Positions 499 to 24,896 of a stretch of 45,562 bases of DNA are shown here, in pieces (positions within the stretch are counted from its first letter, which is position 1; each line of letters opens with the position of its first letter). This stretch comes from an uncultured Clostridia bacterium (GTDB taxonomy: Bacteria; Bacillota; Clostridia; UBA1381), in NCBI GenBank assembly GCA_944390955.1, contig CALXRY010000053.1, positions 1-45,562 on the forward strand, in the 5' to 3' direction. Made by a program: the position numbers and the translations under genes. The notes beneath the pieces are model-generated. The model saw only the letters and a list, made by a program, of their open reading frames with translations. It searched no databases and was not told the DNA's origin.

Positions 499-3411
499 TT
501 ATTCACTTATTCCAGCATCAGCATACGTGCCGATAAAGAAATACAGCTGATCCTTTTCTGTTTTTTCCTGCTTGTTCAGTCCGCTTACTTCAACTACATT
601 TTCGGTAATCTCACTTACTTTATCAATCCATACTGTCGGATTTGACGCGGATTCGGTATCGTTTTTCAGATTCTCAGCAGAACCTATCAGCAGCGGCGCA
701 GTTTCAACAAGACTGCCCTTCGACACTTCGATACCGCCGAATTCGTTACCGCTTACATCCACCACTCCGTCAAGCGTCACATTCGCTCCGTTCACAAGTA
801 TCGCCGCATCAGCTCCGCTTACGGACACATTGCTAAGTGTAACGTTCGATGCGCCGTATGCCTGTATCCCATAAAGTCCCTGCCAGTCCTCGGCGTTATT
901 TATTACCTCAAAAGATATATTCTCAAAAGTAACCTCGCCGGCATTTACTATTTCAACGCCGTCTGTATTATCAAATATTATCGATGCGCCCTCAACGCCT
1001 GCAACGGATACCGGTCTTGTCACCGAAATAACCTTGTCGGCCTCGATACTGCCCGATACATTTATTGTCTTTATATTTTCATCCGCAAGCGCATCCTCAA
1101 GCTCCTCAAGGCTCGAAACGTCAGCCGAAGTGATATCCTCTTCTTCCTCCGTTTCTATCGACAGATAATAGAACATCTGATCCTTTTCATTGTTTGCCTT
1201 TTTATTCAGTCCGTCCACAGCAACGACGCTTTCTGTAAGCTCACTCAGCTTGTCTATCCATATTGTAGGCTGCTCCTCGGTTTCCGTATCATTTTTAAGA
1301 TTTTCCGCAGAGCCCGTTAATAGCGGCGCAGTTTCCGCTTCAATGCCCTTTGCTACTTCAATTCCTCCGAACGCATTACCGCTTACGTCCACTACTCCAT
1401 CAAGCGTCACATTCGCTCCGTTTACAAGTATTCCTGCGTCAGCTCCCGTTACGGAAATGTTTTTCAGCGAAACTTCCGATGTCCCATATGCCTGAACTCC
1501 ATAAAGCCCCTGCCAGCCCTCGGCGTTATTTATTATCTTGATATTTATATCCTCAAGCGTCACATTGCCGGCGTTTACGATCTCTATGCCATCCGTGTTG
1601 TCAAATGTTATTCCGGCCTCGGCTGACCTTGCAGCGCCCTGACCCTTGATGACTACGCTTCTGTTTATCGAAAGCGCCTCGTCTGCCGTTATCTCATCCG
1701 TTATCGTGATGACCTTGATCTCAGGATTTGAAACCGCATCACTCAGCTCCTCAGGCGTCGACGCCTCTGCCTGCATCGACTCAGGTATCCCGTTTATAAA
1801 GAAATGCGCCTGATCCTTCTCAGATATATCTATTTTCTCAAGCCCGCTTACCTCAACAACGCTTTCTGTAAGCGCGCTGACCTTATCTATCCATACAGTT
1901 GGTTTTGACGCAGACTCACTGTCGTTTTTCAAATTTGATGCGCTGCCCTTGAGCTTCGGAGAAGTCTGTATCTCGGCGCCCTTTGATACCTCTATGCCGC
2001 CGAATTCGTTGCCGCTGACATCTACCGTTCCGTCAAGCGTCACCTCCGAGCCGTTCACAAGCACTGCCGCGTCGGCTCCCGTTACTGAAATATTACTTAG
2101 CTCCGCATTACCGCCGTATACCTGTACACCGTACGAACCGTTCCACTTGTCGGCTTCATCGTTCATTTTTATTGAAACGCGCTTGAGCGAAAAGCCCTCT
2201 GCGTTTACAGCCTGGATACCATCCTTCACGCCCTCGGCAAACTCTATCGTATAGTTTCCACCATCAATGGTGATATTGCTTCCCATAACCTCTACGCTGC
2301 TGTCCGAAGCAATGTTGCTCAGAAGTCTTATATTAGCCTTCTTGTCCAGACTGTTTGCCTTTTCAACTGCCTCCTTCAAACTTGAAAACGCATTCTTTCC
2401 TATTGTATATCGGTTCCCTCCCGATATAACACTTCCTGTTTTATCAGCATAGCTGCGGTTTACTATTATAGACGATTCAGAAGCTATCGCTATGTCCGAG
2501 CCGCCGGAGCTTCCTCCTGAGCCGCCTCCGCCAGGAGCTGCTGTCGGCTTGGGGGTTGCCTCCGGTGTTTCGCCGCCATTATCTTCGCCGCCATCATCTC
2601 CACTGCCGTTATCCTCATATACGCTTCCGCCCTGAGTTATTATTTCTCCCGAAACGGTAGTATTCTTTAATGTCACGATACCGTCCTTTACGCCCGGCGC
2701 AAGGATCAGGTCTCCGTCTATCTCCATATTTTCAAGAACTACATCGCTGCTGTTTACGATAACTATACCGCTCAGCTTCTCATCAGCCGTATATGTTCCG
2801 GCGCTTTTATAGAAGCCCTTTACTGCATTGTTTATTATCGTTACGAACTCCGCTCTGCTCATACTGTTCTGAGGACGAAAGGCGTTATCCTCAAAACCAT
2901 TTACATAGCCCTTATGCGCCAGAGCGTATATAGCCTCCGCAGCCCATTCGCTTATGCTGTCCGTATCGGTAAACGAGGGAGCATCCCCGCTCTGCAGAGC
3001 GATCTGAAGCGCTCTTGTAAGCATAACCGACGCCTCCTCGCGAGTTACCGGGTCCTCAGGTCTCATCTCATTATCGTAACCTTGAAGCACTCCACTTGAA
3101 ACCAGCTTCAGAACTGCCTCTGTATACCAGGTATCGTCAAGATCGGAATATACATTTTCCGCAGTTTCCTGATAGCCCATTATTCGGTCCAACATAACAG
3201 CCAGCTCGCCTCTTGTTACTGTGTCATCGGGACGGAATGCACCGTCATGACCAATAATTATATCATGGTTCGACCATACATTAATGGCCGACTCCGCCCA
3301 GTGATCCTTTGTGTCACCGAAATCCGCCGCAAGCGCTCCTGCCGCCGACGACGCGATCATTGACAGGCATATTGAATGCAGTACCGCAAATCTGCGTATT
3401 CTCTTATTCAT
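499..3411 (-). CDS. SLH-anchored surface protein with three 210-residue beta-helix-like repeats
   Basis: 970 residues. A signal peptide (about 1-29) is followed by three SLH domains (about 31-75, 88-136, 146-193), which in this family bind secondary cell-wall polymer. A short module then starts at GTYT (205-263) and is shared with the SLH protein at 8816-9943. A Gly/Pro/Ser-rich linker (about 265-305) leads to a Val/Asn/Thr-rich region of short beta-strand repeats resembling a right-handed parallel beta-helix. That region contains three long tandem repeats: the WNGSYGVQ/WQGLYG motif recurs with Trp at 423, 633 and 843, exactly 210 residues apart. No catalytic motif is recognised, so adhesin, S-layer component or carbohydrate-binding surface protein are all possible. 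The start has a GGAGG site six bases upstream. The gene is monocistronic with its own promoter and terminator. Confidence 0.85.
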   Translation of the reverse strand: MNKRIRRFAVLHSICLSMIASSAAGALAADFGDTKDHWAESAINVWSNHDIIIGHDGAFRPDDTVTRGELAVMLDRIMGYQETAENVYSDLDDTWYTEAVLKLVSSGVLQGYDNEMRPEDPVTREEASVMLTRALQIALQSGDAPSFTDTDSISEWAAEAIYALAHKGYVNGFEDNAFRPQNSMSRAEFVTIINNAVKGFYKSAGTYTADEKLSGIVIVNSSDVVLENMEIDGDLILAPGVKDGIVTLKNTTVSGEIITQGGSVYEDNGSGDDGGEDNGGETPEATPKPTAAPGGGGSGGSSGGSDIAIASESSIIVNRSYADKTGSVISGGNRYTIGKNAFSSLKEAVEKANSLDKKANIRLLSNIASDSSVEVMGSNITIDGGNYTIEFAEGVKDGIQAVNAEGFSLKRVSIKMNDEADKWNGSYGVQVYGGNAELSNISVTGADAAVLVNGSEVTLDGTVDVSGNEFGGIEVSKGAEIQTSPKLKGSASNLKNDSESASKPTVWIDKVSALTESVVEVSGLEKIDISEKDQAHFFINGIPESMQAEASTPEELSDAVSNPEIKVITITDEITADEALSINRSVVIKGQGAARSAEAGITFDNTDGIEIVNAGNVTLEDINIKIINNAEGWQGLYGVQAYGTSEVSLKNISVTGADAGILVNGANVTLDGVVDVSGNAFGGIEVAKGIEAETAPLLTGSAENLKNDTETEEQPTIWIDKLSELTESVVAVDGLNKKANNEKDQMFYYLSIETEEEEDITSADVSSLEELEDALADENIKTINVSGSIEADKVISVTRPVSVAGVEGASIIFDNTDGVEIVNAGEVTFENISFEVINNAEDWQGLYGIQAYGASNVTLSNVSVSGADAAILVNGANVTLDGVVDVSGNEFGGIEVSKGSLVETAPLLIGSAENLKNDTESASNPTVWIDKVSEITENVVEVSGLNKQEKTEKDQLYFFIGTYADAGISE
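502..2241 (-). repeat. Three in-frame tandem repeats of 630 bp inside the SLH gene
   Basis: The units correspond to residues 391-600, 601-810 and 811-970, the last one truncated by the stop. Shared blocks include FDNTDG.EIVNAG, SVTGADA, VDVSGN.FGGIEV and WIDK. Similarity is also clear at the DNA level around 730-830, 1360-1460 and 1990-2090, which suggests fairly recent duplication. Confidence 0.85.
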
Positions 3412-7658: not shown

Positions 7659-7928
7659 TCAATCATCTACGATAAGGCCCGCTCCCCTTGCAGTCTCAAG
7701 AAACTGATCCAATCCCGCGCGCGCGGTCATTTCCGTGACCTCGTAGGTCTCAAGCATCTTCGCAAGGAGCTCGTCATAGGTGCAGCCCTCTGCAAGAGCA
7801 TTCCATAAAAACGCTCCCGAATCGTTAAGAGTTATGAGACCGTTAAATTCCTCGGAAGCCTTTCCTACCGCAACAACAACGTGCCTTCCACCTACGCTTC
7901 TTAACATAAAACCCTTCTTTGTTTTCAT
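7659..7928 (-). CDS. PqqD-family peptide-carrier protein
   Basis: 89 residues from the preferred start MKTKKGFMLR. The pattern (FMLRSVGGRHVVVAVG, LNDSGAFLW, EGCTYDELLAKM, then a helical tail) is that of PqqD/RRE proteins, which bind leader peptides and present them to modifying enzymes in RiPP pathways. An upstream ATG at 7934 is rejected because GAGAGGG lies directly against it and six bases before the ATG at 7928. The kinase-like gene lies just upstream with a 12-base gap, so the two are co-transcribed. No precursor peptide, radical SAM enzyme or transglutaminase-like protein is adjacent, so the substrate is unknown. Confidence 0.82.
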   Translation of the reverse strand: MKTKKGFMLRSVGGRHVVVAVGKASEEFNGLITLNDSGAFLWNALAEGCTYDELLAKMLETYEVTEMTARAGLDQFLETARGAGLIVDD

Positions 7929-7940
7929 ATACATCCCTCT

Positions 7941-8639
7941 CTATCTGTTTTGAGTCATTCCTCTGTAAGATACCTCGGCAGCCTCCAGCTCCATGTTGCA
8001 GCAGAGCTTATATACCGGAACCGTTGTGATTAGCTTATCAAGAATTTTAAGTAGCTTATCCATACGCTCTTCCGATACCGGTCTGACCGTCTGATTTAAT
8101 ATTCCGAAAAGCGCAGCCTCCGGATCAGCTTTTTCTATGCTGTTTTCCTTACCACGCTCAAGCATACATATCCCACGCAGCGGAACACCCTCATTAACAT
8201 TAAGATCAGTCTTTCCCGAAAACGGCGTGCCGTAAACGTAAAAGCCGTCTTTTGTAAGCCTTATAGCCGGCTTATCATCGTTAAGGATATATGCTCCCTC
8301 AAAGCGCTTCAGCCATATCTGCGTATGCGTTGACTTTCCTGTGCCGCATGGCGCACTGAACAGAAAACCCTCGCCTTTATATACCACCGCCGATGAATGC
8401 AGCAGCAGGCCTCCGAATTCCGGCAGCAGCTCATAAAACTCACTCCCGAGCCATATATATTCACAGTCCTCAATCGTAAGATGCGGGTTCTCTCTTTGCT
8501 TATGTTCCAAAAATTCATCACTCAAGCGTATCCTTATGTCGGACTCCGAAGCCTCATCTGTCAAATAAGCTTCGCTCTGCCTGAGAGTTCGCGGATATTT
8601 TGGTGCCATATCAACATTTATTCCGGCAATATTATACAT
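7941..8639 (-). CDS. HPr-kinase-like P-loop kinase
   Basis: 232 residues. It has a Walker A loop APCGTGKST (96-104), an HSSAVV strand just before it (81-86) and an acidic NDDKP motif (120-124), all typical of the C-terminal kinase fold of HprK. It is too short and lacks the HprK N-terminal domain, so it is not the catabolite-control kinase itself. Related small kinases occur with PqqD-like proteins and, in lasso peptide clusters, phosphorylate the peptide. It is the first gene of a two-gene operon with the PqqD protein. GAGGAG lies nine bases before the ATG, and the promoter at 8670-8698 is embedded in a palindrome. The physiological substrate cannot be read from the sequence. Confidence 0.8.
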   Translation of the reverse strand: MYNIAGINVDMAPKYPRTLRQSEAYLTDEASESDIRIRLSDEFLEHKQRENPHLTIEDCEYIWLGSEFYELLPEFGGLLLHSSAVVYKGEGFLFSAPCGTGKSTHTQIWLKRFEGAYILNDDKPAIRLTKDGFYVYGTPFSGKTDLNVNEGVPLRGICMLERGKENSIEKADPEAALFGILNQTVRPVSEERMDKLLKILDKLITTVPVYKLCCNMELEAAEVSYRGMTQNR

Positions 8640-8660
8640 TTAAGTTTTCTCCTCTTGTTT

Positions 8661-8698
8661 TATAGGTATATTATACTATACAATACCTATAAATTCAA
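8661..8698 (-). promoter_or_regulatory. Promoter with embedded palindrome for the kinase-PqqD operon
   Basis: Read leftward: TTGAAT (8693-8698), 17-base spacer, TATAAT (8670-8675). The arms TATAGGTAT (8661-8669) and ATACCTATA (8683-8691) form a perfect 9-bp inverted repeat that brackets the -10 box. A repressor bound there would block transcription. It lies too close to the start to be explained simply as an RNA hairpin. Confidence 0.7.
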
Positions 8699-8815: not shown

Positions 8816-9943
8816 ATGAAACATCTAAAGAAGCTTGCAGCGCTGATGATTGCAGGGGCTGTTTCGGTCGGAAGTGCATTTTCAGCTTTTGCTGCTTTCA
8901 GTGATATGCCGGAAGGAGAAATGGGCGTAGCGATCGATAACGCAGTAAATAACGGACTTCTTACAGGATATGAGGACAACACCGTGAGACCGTACGAGCC
9001 CATAACAAGAGCGCAGATGTCTGCGATAATTGTACGAGCCTTCGGCGCTACAGAGAGAACAGATACCTCCTTCGGCGATGTTCCGGATGACGCATGGTAT
9101 AAGGAATCCGTTGAGCAGGCGGTATATATGGGCGCATTCGAAGGAGATGAAAACGGAAACTTCAATCCGAACAACAACATCACATTCCAGGAAACATACG
9201 CAGTGCTTGCGAGAGTATTCCAGTTCGTTCCGCGCGATGTCACCGTATCTCCGCGTGTGGAGAGCAGTGTTGAGGAAACGCTCTCGGAATACAGCCGGAT
9301 ATCTAATCAGACATATACCACTTCGGAAAAAGACGGCAATACATACGTTACAATCACGGGTCAGATATGTGTTCCCGCCGACAATGCGCTCGATTCCTTC
9401 CCCGACAGAGATCAGCTTGCCTCATGGGCTTCCGATTACGCAAAGGCTGTAGTAGGCAACGGCGGCTATACCGGCATAGACGGTATGCTCAAGCCCAATG
9501 ATGCGATCTCAAGAGGAGAATTTGCCATGATCATGGACGAGCTTGTAAGTCTCTATATAGATGAACCAGGAACATATACAGACGGCTTCGGCTCCGGCAG
9601 CGTTGTTGTACGCTCGGGAGGAGTTACCATAGATGGACTTAACACAGATAATAATCTCATCCTCAGCTACGGTATCGACAGCAAGACCGAGGTCAAAAAC
9701 TCAACAATTGGCAACTGCATCGTTGTCTACGGCGGCAGCGATCCAACTCCGGTTGAAAATGAGAACGGCATATTACGAGCCGACGAATCATTCATAAGCA
9801 TTTCGGCAAACATATATGACTGCCGTATATTTGCTCCATATTCAGAAACGCTGGTAGTATGCACAAACGAAAATGTAAGAGATGCATTTATAAAGTCATA
9901 CCAGTTTGATACAGCAATTGTTAATCTCGGTTTTATGCAGTAA
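8816..9943 (+). CDS. SLH-domain surface protein with short post-SLH module
   Basis: 375 residues. A signal peptide (1-27) precedes SLH domains at about 28-76 and 86-136. The third SLH (about 195-244) is separated from the second by an insert of roughly 55 residues (140-194). A module starting GTYT (252-308) follows directly; its pattern (VVV..., NLILSYGI, VKNSTI, YGGS) matches the module at residues 205-263 of the SLH protein at 499-3411. The remaining 65 residues are unrecognised. No enzymatic motif is visible; an S-layer-like structural role is plausible. AAAGGA precedes the ATG by 12 bases. It is monocistronic. Confidence 0.82.
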   Translation: MKHLKKLAALMIAGAVSVGSAFSAFAAFSDMPEGEMGVAIDNAVNNGLLTGYEDNTVRPYEPITRAQMSAIIVRAFGATERTDTSFGDVPDDAWYKESVEQAVYMGAFEGDENGNFNPNNNITFQETYAVLARVFQFVPRDVTVSPRVESSVEETLSEYSRISNQTYTTSEKDGNTYVTITGQICVPADNALDSFPDRDQLASWASDYAKAVVGNGGYTGIDGMLKPNDAISRGEFAMIMDELVSLYIDEPGTYTDGFGSGSVVVRSGGVTIDGLNTDNNLILSYGIDSKTEVKNSTIGNCIVVYGGSDPTPVENENGILRADESFISISANIYDCRIFAPYSETLVVCTNENVRDAFIKSYQFDTAIVNLGFMQ

Positions 9944-9990: not shown

Positions 9991-11415
9991 CTATTCAAGA
10001 AACTCCTTACAGTATCGGTCTATGCCCTCGGCGATGGAGCGTCCTATCTGCTCCGACTCGTTTCTCAATATTTCAAGATCGCTGCTGTTGTCAAAGAAAC
10101 CTATCTCAAGATATGCTATTGTTATCGGGCATTTACAGAACAGCACCAGCTCCGGTAATGCTTCATAGCGTCCACCGGAATATGCGGACAAGCTCGTATT
10201 TTCAACTATCTTATCGTTTATGTATTGTCCGAGAGTATTGCCGTCCTGAGCATATGTCGGCGAGATGCCTGCCTGATCATAATAGCCGTCGAGCGCTATA
10301 TATGCGCTTCCGCGGCCGCCGCCAGCGTTTGAATGAACACATACAAACAGGTCGGCGTCAGGCGCCTGAGTTGTGTCGTTATTAGGATAACAGTATATGA
10401 GCCGCTTTGTCATCGACGGATTATCGTCTGCGGTCGGTCTTGAAAGACGCACTTCATAGCCCATTTCCTCAAGATACTGCTTTGCATAGCTTACATTTGA
10501 GAGGTTTATATCAGGTTCTATCGCCCTGTCGCCGTTAGCCATCGGATACCAGCAGCCGCCTCCGGACGGCGCCCGCCCCGAACAGCCCCAGCCCTCGCAG
10601 TCCTGCCATGTCGTCCAGGACTTCCAATGCCTCCACTCTCCCCAGGTGCCTGTATTTTCATTATATAGCCAGCCCTCGGCAAGCTTCTCCTCATCGCTCA
10701 TATAGCCAGAGTCCTTTCCGTGACCCGCGTCAAGGACTATGATCTTCTTCGGCTCCGGAGTCGGCATCGGCTCTGGAACAGCATTTTCGCCTACGAAGGA
10801 ATCGTATTCAAGCTTATCCTCTATCTTTGCATACATGCGCATTATCATAACGGCTGCATTTCCGCGGCTGACAAAATCCCCGCCGCCGAAGGTGTTATCC
10901 GTACGCTCTGTTATTATCCCCTCGTTCTTTGCTATCTTGACATAATCCCGTGCCCAGTCCGAAACGCCGTCCCTGTAGGTCAGCTCGATATCCGGCACCT
11001 GAGTCCCGTTCAAATCCTGAAGCACCCTGACAAGCACCGCCACAAGCTGCTCTTTTGTTATGCTGTCATTTCCCCTGAATGTCCCATCGTCAAAACCGTT
11101 TATGATCCCCTCTTTTTCAGACGAAGCTGCAACGTAATAATACCAGTCGTACTTCGTTACGTCAGTAAACGTGCACTCAAGCGTGTTATCCATTTTGTTC
11201 AGTATCCTAAGCATGACCGCCGCAAGCTCCGCACGGCTTATCAGCTTGAACGGCGAAAACTCAGTTTCCGACGTGCCATTTATATACCGCTTTTCAACCA
11301 TGGTGTTCACAGCGTTCTGCATCTCACTGCCGGTGCCCTCCATATCCTCAAACGCGGCAAACGCCGAAGGCATAAGCAGCACAATCGCCATTATCACCGA
11401 AATCAATTTTTTCAT
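9991..11415 (-). CDS. SLH-anchored N-acetylmuramoyl-L-alanine amidase (Amidase_3)
   Basis: 474 residues. A signal peptide (1-20) precedes three SLH domains (about 22-70, 82-132, 145-196), a Pro/Glu linker (about 210-222) and an Amidase_3 domain (225-474). The zinc-binding and catalytic residues are visible: His232 in DAGHG, Glu300, His361 in VHSNA and Glu437 in YLEIGF. Enzymes of this family cleave the bond between MurNAc and the peptide stem. Between His232 and Glu300 lies an insert of roughly 50 residues beyond the usual spacing, with eight Trp and three Cys at 249-289. AGAAGGG precedes the ATG by five bases. It is monocistronic. Confidence 0.92.
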   Translation of the reverse strand: MKKLISVIMAIVLLMPSAFAAFEDMEGTGSEMQNAVNTMVEKRYINGTSETEFSPFKLISRAELAAVMLRILNKMDNTLECTFTDVTKYDWYYYVAASSEKEGIINGFDDGTFRGNDSITKEQLVAVLVRVLQDLNGTQVPDIELTYRDGVSDWARDYVKIAKNEGIITERTDNTFGGGDFVSRGNAAVMIMRMYAKIEDKLEYDSFVGENAVPEPMPTPEPKKIIVLDAGHGKDSGYMSDEEKLAEGWLYNENTGTWGEWRHWKSWTTWQDCEGWGCSGRAPSGGGCWYPMANGDRAIEPDINLSNVSYAKQYLEEMGYEVRLSRPTADDNPSMTKRLIYCYPNNDTTQAPDADLFVCVHSNAGGGRGSAYIALDGYYDQAGISPTYAQDGNTLGQYINDKIVENTSLSAYSGGRYEALPELVLFCKCPITIAYLEIGFFDNSSDLEILRNESEQIGRSIAEGIDRYCKEFLE

Positions 11416-22997: not shown

Positions 22998-24896
22998 TTA
23001 TTCCGAAAGCTCTGTACCGTCGGCAAGTGTTATCGTATAACCGTTAAAGTCTATCGTTCCGTCGTTTTCAATGCTTGTCAGAGTGCAGTCGCCGGTAAGC
23101 GTCCACGTCGAATCCTCGCTGATGTAAACGACTGCATTATCGGATACCGCCTCCCCGTCCTGTTCGTTATCTATAATATTTATAGTACCGGTGAAATCAG
23201 AACCGTTCGTAAGGCTGAAGTCAAGATTTGAGATAGTGTCAACGACTATATCTCCCTCAAGAGTCTGAGCATCGGCTGTCACCTCTGCCTGAGCGCCGTT
23301 CGCTCCTGCCTGTCCCCAGCCGCGCGAAGCACTGTTTCCGGTAACACGCATAAGATAGCTTTCATCATCCTCGTTAGTTATTTCAACACCGGAAAGCGTT
23401 ACTACCGCATGAGTATTGGTTATATAGAATACATCGCCATTATGGCTGAGCAGAGAGCCGCCGTTCATTGTAAAGGTAGATGTCCCTACCTCAGCGTCGC
23501 CCGACATCGACTGATATATCATAACATTATGCACGTTTTCATCTGAGCTTGCACCCTCTGTATCGCTCATATTGCCCGAAACATCACAGTCATTAAGGGT
23601 GATAGAATTATGCCCTTCAATAACGAGCGCCTCGGAATTATTGGCCGTCAGCTCCGCATTTGAAACAGTTATATCGGCAGTCGAATAAACAGCGGGCGAA
23701 TTATAACCGTTTGACGTGTATGTTCCGCCGTCAACAGTTACCGTACCGCCGCCGCGGTCAGAGCGTATGGCCGCCGACGAGCTGCCGGATGTGTCTACCG
23801 TAAGATCCGAGGCTGTCATAGACGCGCCGCCGGTCGTCTGTATGCCGCCCGAATTGTCAGCCGTCGTTGTTATGACTGTATCTGAAACCGTTACCGAGGT
23901 GCCTTCGCCATAGCTGAATATTCCATTTCCGTTCTGTGCGGAGGAACTCACCTCCGAATCGGTTATTGTCACGTTAGCTCCATCGGTTGCGAGCAGAGCC
24001 GCATTCATGCCGTAAAAATCGCCGTCCTCGGTATTTGACGACTCGCCTGCGGATTTATCCACGGTTATGCCGTCGAGCGTGACCTCTGCTCCTGTTATTC
24101 TGAGTGCGTTCTCATCATCGCCTGTAGAGGTATACATCTCACCGCTTATTTCACTGTCTGTATCTATCGTATTTGCCGAGGTGCCCTGTGTAACCTCATC
24201 CGAACCGCCAGTGCCCGGCGCATCGGGCGGCGTATTACCCATTATCCCAGTTGCTTCCAGCGCACGCACAAGTATCGCGGCCGTTTCCGCACGTGACAGA
24301 TCATCAGCCGGACGCAGGGTCGTACCGTCGCCCTCGATTATACCTTCGCCAACAAGCATTTGCACGGCTTCAAGCGCATCTTCAGAAATTTCGCTGCTGT
24401 CAGTGTAGGCTGAAAGCTCCGATGCCGTTTCTAATTCCACATTTTTATATTGCAGATAGCGGTACAGGAATACCATCATTTCCTCACGGCTGATAGCCGC
24501 ATCAGGGTCAAAAGAAGAAACATCCGTGAGAATCGAGCTTTGCTCCGCCCATTCAACAGCCGCAGTATACCAGCTTTCACTGTCCGCGGCTTCTGAATCA
24601 TCACCTGCATTGCCGCTGTCAGTACGGTAGAGCATTGTTAGAAATTCGGCTCCAGTAAGCGAGCTTTCCGGCGAAAATGTATCCTCCGAGGTCCCATTAA
24701 TGATTCCCAAAGAATACGCTTCTGAAACATAGGAATAATACCAGTCATCAGATGTGACATCCGTAAATGGGAGCGCGGCAATTTCTTCTGCGTTCTGTCC
24801 CTCGGTCTCTGCCGCCAATACCGAAAATGAGCCTGTGCCGGACAGCGCCAGCGATGCTGCAATAAGCACTGTCAAAAGGTTCTTTTTGTAAAGCAT
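22998..24896 (-). CDS. SLH-anchored beta-helix surface protein
   Basis: 632 residues. A signal peptide (1-29) precedes three SLH-like domains (about 44-92, 100-150, 160-215), a Gly/Pro linker near 222-235 and a long Thr/Ser/Asn/Gly-rich region of short imperfect repeats (VTITDSEVSSS, VTVSDTVITT, NSGGIQTTGGASM) typical of right-handed parallel beta-helices. Proteins of this layout are usually adhesins or polysaccharide-binding proteins; no catalytic residues are recognisable. The region is acidic and almost free of Lys. AAGGAGG lies nine bases before the ATG. The leader is unusually long (about 205 bases) and carries a hairpin at 24929-24967. It is monocistronic. Confidence 0.85.
   Translation of the reverse strand: MLYKKNLLTVLIAASLALSGTGSFSVLAAETEGQNAEEIAALPFTDVTSDDWYYSYVSEAYSLGIINGTSEDTFSPESSLTGAEFLTMLYRTDSGNAGDDSEAADSESWYTAAVEWAEQSSILTDVSSFDPDAAISREEMMVFLYRYLQYKNVELETASELSAYTDSSEISEDALEAVQMLVGEGIIEGDGTTLRPADDLSRAETAAILVRALEATGIMGNTPPDAPGTGGSDEVTQGTSANTIDTDSEISGEMYTSTGDDENALRITGAEVTLDGITVDKSAGESSNTEDGDFYGMNAALLATDGANVTITDSEVSSSAQNGNGIFSYGEGTSVTVSDTVITTTADNSGGIQTTGGASMTASDLTVDTSGSSSAAIRSDRGGGTVTVDGGTYTSNGYNSPAVYSTADITVSNAELTANNSEALVIEGHNSITLNDCDVSGNMSDTEGASSDENVHNVMIYQSMSGDAEVGTSTFTMNGGSLLSHNGDVFYITNTHAVVTLSGVEITNEDDESYLMRVTGNSASRGWGQAGANGAQAEVTADAQTLEGDIVVDTISNLDFSLTNGSDFTGTINIIDNEQDGEAVSDNAVVYISEDSTWTLTGDCTLTSIENDGTIDFNGYTITLADGTELSE

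Follow-up and report, generated by a model that had tools for sequence, protein, structure and literature searches.

A stand-alone kinase/RRE gene pair in a Clostridia genome as the probable hub of an LPP-like peptide kinase system with dispersed precursors

An HprK-like kinase and a PqqD-like protein encoded side by side in the genome of an uncultured Clostridia bacterium probably form the cytoplasmic hub of a trans-acting peptide kinase system that resembles the pathway for linear polyphosphorylated peptides (LPP) and would serve about 17 precursor peptides dispersed over the genome. The partners of the gene pair are encoded elsewhere in the genome, which is why the pair has the appearance of an orphan. 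It is located in a stretch of 45,562 nucleotides, here termed the window, for which a preliminary description had offered two explanations: a peptide phosphorylation system with its substrate encoded elsewhere, or some other use of the carrier fold. The former is supported by 17 leader-bearing open reading frames, phosphorylation itself being deduced; the latter is not supported. Stand-alone kinase/PqqD pairs are apparent dead ends for genome mining that relies on clusters. In this genome, the substrates missing from the locus were found scattered in a regular gene order, which makes 17 candidate substrates available for functional tests. We found no report of dispersed precursors for such kinases in the open-access literature, and our reading would add Clostridia and a trans layout to the LPP-type peptide family, which was described in 2026.

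The genome (G000) is metagenome-assembled and 88.8% complete, and among named taxa its closest relatives are members of Candidatus Ornithomonoglobus (Clostridia). As in any metagenome bin, misbinned contigs are possible, yet the congeners agree with the results reported below.

The kinase/RRE gene pair

Both genes were recovered at the place and on the strand given in the preliminary description, and, as it had also remarked, the genes next to them encode neither a precursor nor a radical SAM enzyme nor a transporter. On the minus strand, positions 7659..7934 encode a predicted RiPP recognition element (RRE) of 91 residues (PqqD fold, LppB-like) and positions 7941..8639 a putative kinase of 232 residues (HprK/PEPCK fold, LppK-like), which is present as a single copy in the genome. 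The gap between the two genes amounts to 6 nt, and orthologues of the RRE start at its third residue (MKTKK..., 7928). The PqqD match of the 91-residue protein is a firm prediction (PF05402, 59.2 bits against a Pfam cut-off of 23.4), and it is the only PqqD protein found in the genome. Its AlphaFold model (pLDDT 91.9) has its best Foldseek match in lasso RRE-leader complexes (TbiB1, TM 0.80), and the solved proteins closest to it by sequence are PbaB1 (E 0.034) and LppB (E 0.14). A second class of PqqD-like proteins with about 120 residues and low scores occurs in genomes G005, G008, G013, G020 and G030, and some genomes with this class are devoid of the kinase.

The kinase did not match any Pfam family above the cut-off, and its NCBIfam matches to HprK-type kinases were weak (ScmC, 1.7e-5). 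For its model (pLDDT 79.5), the nearest solved folds in Foldseek were PEPCK and HprK, with E values of 1.9e-5 and 2.9e-4, respectively, and low TM values of 0.3-0.45, such that an HprK/PEPCK fold is suggested with modest confidence. An HprK-like kinase also occurs together with a PqqD-like protein in HPr-rel-A (TIGR04352 and TIGR04353), and ScmC of SynChlorMet is likewise an HprK-like kinase; filing under either heading was rejected, as the scores fall well short of the curated thresholds (13.1 of 200, 15.7 of 35 and 24.3 of 125). The kinase motifs comprise H81, the Walker A sequence G99-x-G101-K102-S-T104-H105, N120-D-D122-K-P124 and G137-T-P139-x-x-G142-K143. In an alignment of 39 orthologues these positions are kept in 37-39 proteins, with His81, G-x-G-K-[ST]-T-H, N120-x-D122-x-P124 and G137-x-P139-x-x-G142-K143 being near-invariant. 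The protein therefore does not resemble a dead enzyme, and inactivating substitutions in relatives, which the preliminary description had named as a possible counter-argument, are absent, the kinase motifs being intact everywhere examined.

Promoter and inverted repeat

A good promoter had been described ahead of the pair, and a sigma-70-type sequence, TTGAAT-N17-TATAAT, is indeed present on the minus strand (8698 to 8670), although such matches are no rarer than in shuffled sequence (4 found vs. 3.4 expected). The perfect 9-bp inverted repeat reported at the -10 box proved to be longer. It consists of perfect 11-nt arms (left arm, 8659..8669, TTTATAGGTAT; right arm, 8683..8693, ATACCTATAAA) with the -10 box between them. 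When this AT-rich region was re-sampled with a Markov-1 model, about 2% of the resulting sequences contained arms of at least 10 nt. A role of the palindrome as an operator was considered and dismissed: in the nearest congener (L032, kinase identity 86%) the -10 box is conserved, but the repeat arms are not; a genome-wide search for the palindrome yielded no second perfect copy; and near matches in the genome numbered 11, compared with 20 for a reversed control pattern. The inverted repeat is real, yet probably incidental and unimportant.

Dispersed precursor peptides

A profile built from 14 leaders encoded beside kinase or RRE genes of relatives (A1) was run on 61 genomes. It found 14 matches in the window's own genome, and the matches that were retrieved are short open reading frames with strong Shine-Dalgarno sites. 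The refined leader profile A2, applied with a threshold of E <= 3.5e-4, identified 17 short open reading frames on 17 contigs of this genome, and the genome-wide search for leaders matching the RRE that the preliminary description had recommended has in this way provided 17 candidates. All 17 peptides contain [YF]xxP, a downstream Phe and Thr-x-Ser. In 16 of them, these elements are arranged as [YF]xxP-x6-F-x6-T-x-S with an identical 20-residue spacing, while the 17th is off by one residue. The consensus reads [YF]xxPxIx[IV]xxFxxENIVTxS, the first residue of the leader motif is Tyr in all but two of the 17 peptides, and the cores are variable. Searches of Pfam and NCBIfam did not return any real family match for the peptides. 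Comparison of the C96 peptide gene with its counterpart in a congener (L169) revealed 10 synonymous and 13 non-synonymous codon differences, with third positions most changed, which suggests purifying selection.

A few leaders (C190, C215, L111 and L241) have Phe instead of Tyr. Co-variation of Phe-for-Tyr leaders with an Asp-to-Gly exchange in the RRE is suggestive at best, given the few Phe cases, and is not claimed here.

Protease, NTP transferase and exporter

A protease of the A3 family is encoded in a single copy that stands alone in the genome (C159:9157-9567, E 3.6e-45). In relatives, the A3-family protease gene adjoins the kinase and RRE genes. Members of the family match archaeal-type signal peptidase I (TIGR02228, best E 4.1e-8) and SipW (5.7e-6); for the copy encoded in G000, Pfam gave no match. 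A gene for an NTP_transf_5 protein (PF14907), again present in one copy, is located at C198:17024-17764 inside a polysaccharide-type gene cluster. The exporter profile A8 gave a bimodal distribution, with likely true members scoring 441-895 bits and other ABC transporters at most 316 bits. The best score in G000, 286.6 bits, is background, and the same holds for all seven genomes checked from genera g1, g12 and g15 (G000, G001, G002, G013, G016, G027 and G033), several of which are 97-98% complete. The exporter-less members of these genera keep the kinase, the RRE, the protease and several to about 20 peptides each.

The lack of an A8-family exporter in g1, g12 and g15 could indicate a decayed remnant, that is, an LPP-like cluster that lost its exporter and was scattered and in which kinase and RRE persist by drift only. 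The absence of a precursor from the locus and the Gly that the RRE of the window's clade carries at the position of LppB Asp70 point in the same direction. We nevertheless regard decay as quite unlikely, because the kinase motifs are intact across the orthologues, the pair stays together in all three congeners (3/3) as well as in g12 and g15, the 17 precursors retain the leader, Thr-x-Ser and ribosome sites, the codon changes in C96 suggest purifying selection, and the protease is retained. Nor are orthologous pairs always part of a complete known cluster, an arrangement that the preliminary description would have taken as a sign of decay in the window: complete, partial and split arrangements all occur among relatives.

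Comparison with LPP and lasso peptide systems

LPP clusters were published in May 2026 for lppA-K-B-S-D-N of Paenibacillus alginolyticus (PMC13381572). Experiments showed that LppK attaches several phosphates to core Ser3, that LppS, which likewise matches archaeal-type signal peptidase, cuts behind Thr-1, and that the YxxP motif of the leader is bound by LppB, whose Asp70 forms a hydrogen bond with the leader tyrosine (PMC13381572). Words beginning with Clostridi- are absent from the main text of that article. The system considered here has the following in common with LPP: an HprK-like kinase, as judged by its motifs and by a fold with modest TM values, a discrete RRE of the PqqD fold, an archaeal-type (SipW-like) signal-peptidase-like protease, here in one copy away from the locus of the pair, and precursors in which a YxxP leader precedes a Thr closely followed by a Ser, the RRE motif [Y/W]xxPx[hydrophobic] of LPP precursors being represented by [YF]xxP in all 17. 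An NTP transferase gene, here within a polysaccharide-type cluster, is a candidate for a further shared component. On the other hand, the precursors are encoded at 17 loci behind secreted-protein genes instead of one to three in the cluster, the protease and NTP transferase genes are found on other contigs, an MsbA-like exporter was not found in G000, the leaders do not show the HQ and FETxxS details of the published consensus (YxxPxVLxHQxIxFETxxS, PMC13381572), and the host belongs to Clostridia. As the exporter, the full leader consensus and the single cluster are all lacking, we speak of an LPP-like variant and not of an LPP member. The Gly in place of LppB Asp70, the absent exporter, the match to the consensus in YxxP only and two peptides without a partner gene have to be counted against the LPP-like reading.

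By homology to this characterised system and in the light of the conserved residues, any one of the approximately 17 precursor peptides would be bound by the RRE through its [YF]xxPxI leader and presented to the kinase, which would phosphorylate the conserved serine in the Thr-x-Ser that closely follows the leader. Near that threonine, the leader would then be removed by the single protease encoded on C159.

A paeninodin-type lasso peptide pathway with its cyclase encoded elsewhere has to be weighed against this proposal. Clusters of this type (PadeK, PbaB1) share with the present system an HprK-type kinase and a discrete RRE, and they also have an NTP transferase in common with it (PMC13381572); the YxxP leaders resemble lasso leaders, for which the motif is [Y/W]xxP. 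However, the loci examined showed no recognisable macrolactam cyclase or B2 protease, the leaders contain Tyr or Phe and not Trp, and the co-occurring protease is of the LppS type, all of which renders a lasso pathway very improbable.

Gene neighbourhoods and co-occurrence in relatives

The kinase is present in 46 of the 61 related genomes, and its surroundings vary. Locus L048 combines the genes for kinase, RRE, protease, ABC exporter and NTP_transf_5 with that for a 35-aa YxxP peptide upstream, and such a gene set, as far as sequence comparison goes, is the set described as LPP in its one-cluster layout. In L052, the order is kinase, two peptides, RRE and protease; a peptide gene adjoins the kinase gene in L061, L067 and L127; L282 and L291 comprise kinase, RRE and protease genes in one operon that lacks a peptide gene; and some relatives have the pair by itself, the layout seen in the window.

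When genomes are counted as having both components, the kinase only, the other component only, or neither, the 61 relatives yield 45/1/3/12 for kinase and PqqD, 41/5/0/15 for kinase and protease, and 40/6/1/14 for kinase and peptides. Among 391 genomes of the class, the kinase was detected in 111, the peptides in 57 and both in 55, such that 55 of the 57 peptide-bearing genomes contain the kinase (p = 4e-33, phylogeny ignored). Since phylogeny is ignored and the peptide profile was built from kinase-bearing genomes, these counts support the link between kinase and peptides, but do not prove it.

The pair is flanked by a divergently oriented gene for an S-layer-homology (SLH) surface protein (Pfam SLH; 8816..9943, plus strand). 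This divergent neighbour recurs in L032, L033, L035 and L037, and in L042, L045, L047 and L048 an SLH gene is co-directional with the kinase gene and abuts or overlaps it. It is conceivable on these grounds that the pair has a separate substrate, such as the divergent SLH protein or some other protein of the cytoplasm, and that the YxxP peptides serve a different RRE-bearing system. We consider this unlikely, because the genome has just the one PqqD protein, kinase and peptides occur together in nearly all cases, and peptide genes adjoin the kinase gene in L127 and in three further loci (L052, L061 and L067). SLH genes are so abundant in these genomes that adjacency carries little weight, and the SLH protein was rejected as a candidate substrate. 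The window itself is rich in SLH-type surface proteins (499-3411, 8816-9943, 9991-11415 and 22998-24896). A dihydrofolate reductase gene adjoins the kinase or RRE gene in L035-L037, L041, L043, L046 and L241.

Secreted-protein genes upstream of the peptide genes

In the window's genome, 15 of the 17 peptide genes lie directly behind a secreted-protein gene or slightly overlap it. The precursor-like open reading frames C25:3976 and C158:6411 of G000 have no such gene upstream. Across several genera and families, a co-directional gene ends at most 100 nt upstream of 51 out of 55 peptide genes. A Sec-like signal, called by a simple rule, was present in 40 of 43 intact partners vs. 25 of 120 other genes of the same loci (p = 2e-17). 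The partners are diverse: BLAST yields several small clusters (11, 6, 5, ...), Pfam gave almost nothing for them, and a common C-terminal domain is not claimed.

Within the LPP-like reading, each peptide and the secreted protein whose gene directly precedes it are probably co-expressed, and the peptide product would therefore probably serve this protein or its surroundings at the surface; that it acts with or on the co-encoded protein is suggested by gene order. Going further, we tentatively propose that one hub phosphorylates an entire peptide family in trans, each member being dedicated to its upstream secreted protein and handled without the usual exporter. On the same tentative footing, the peptides might act as a tag, co-factor or regulator, and the arrangement might have arisen repeatedly in Clostridia. 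If true, this would be a peptide modification network linked to surface proteins, unlike a classical natural-product cluster, and the tie to secreted proteins would bear on the purpose of phosphorylated linear peptides.

The prochlorosins (ProcM/ProcA) provide a parallel in that one promiscuous enzyme acts on many genome-scattered precursors with conserved leaders and variable cores, while enzymes and chemistry are unrelated and a tie to secreted-protein genes is not mentioned in the parts of the source consulted (PMC10783134). Comparable dispersed sets are found in three or more further families. Genomes with at least five peptide matches come from the window's family and from f17, f19, f20, f30 and f77, and in the loci read in f19, f20 and f77, the peptide genes again follow secreted-protein genes.
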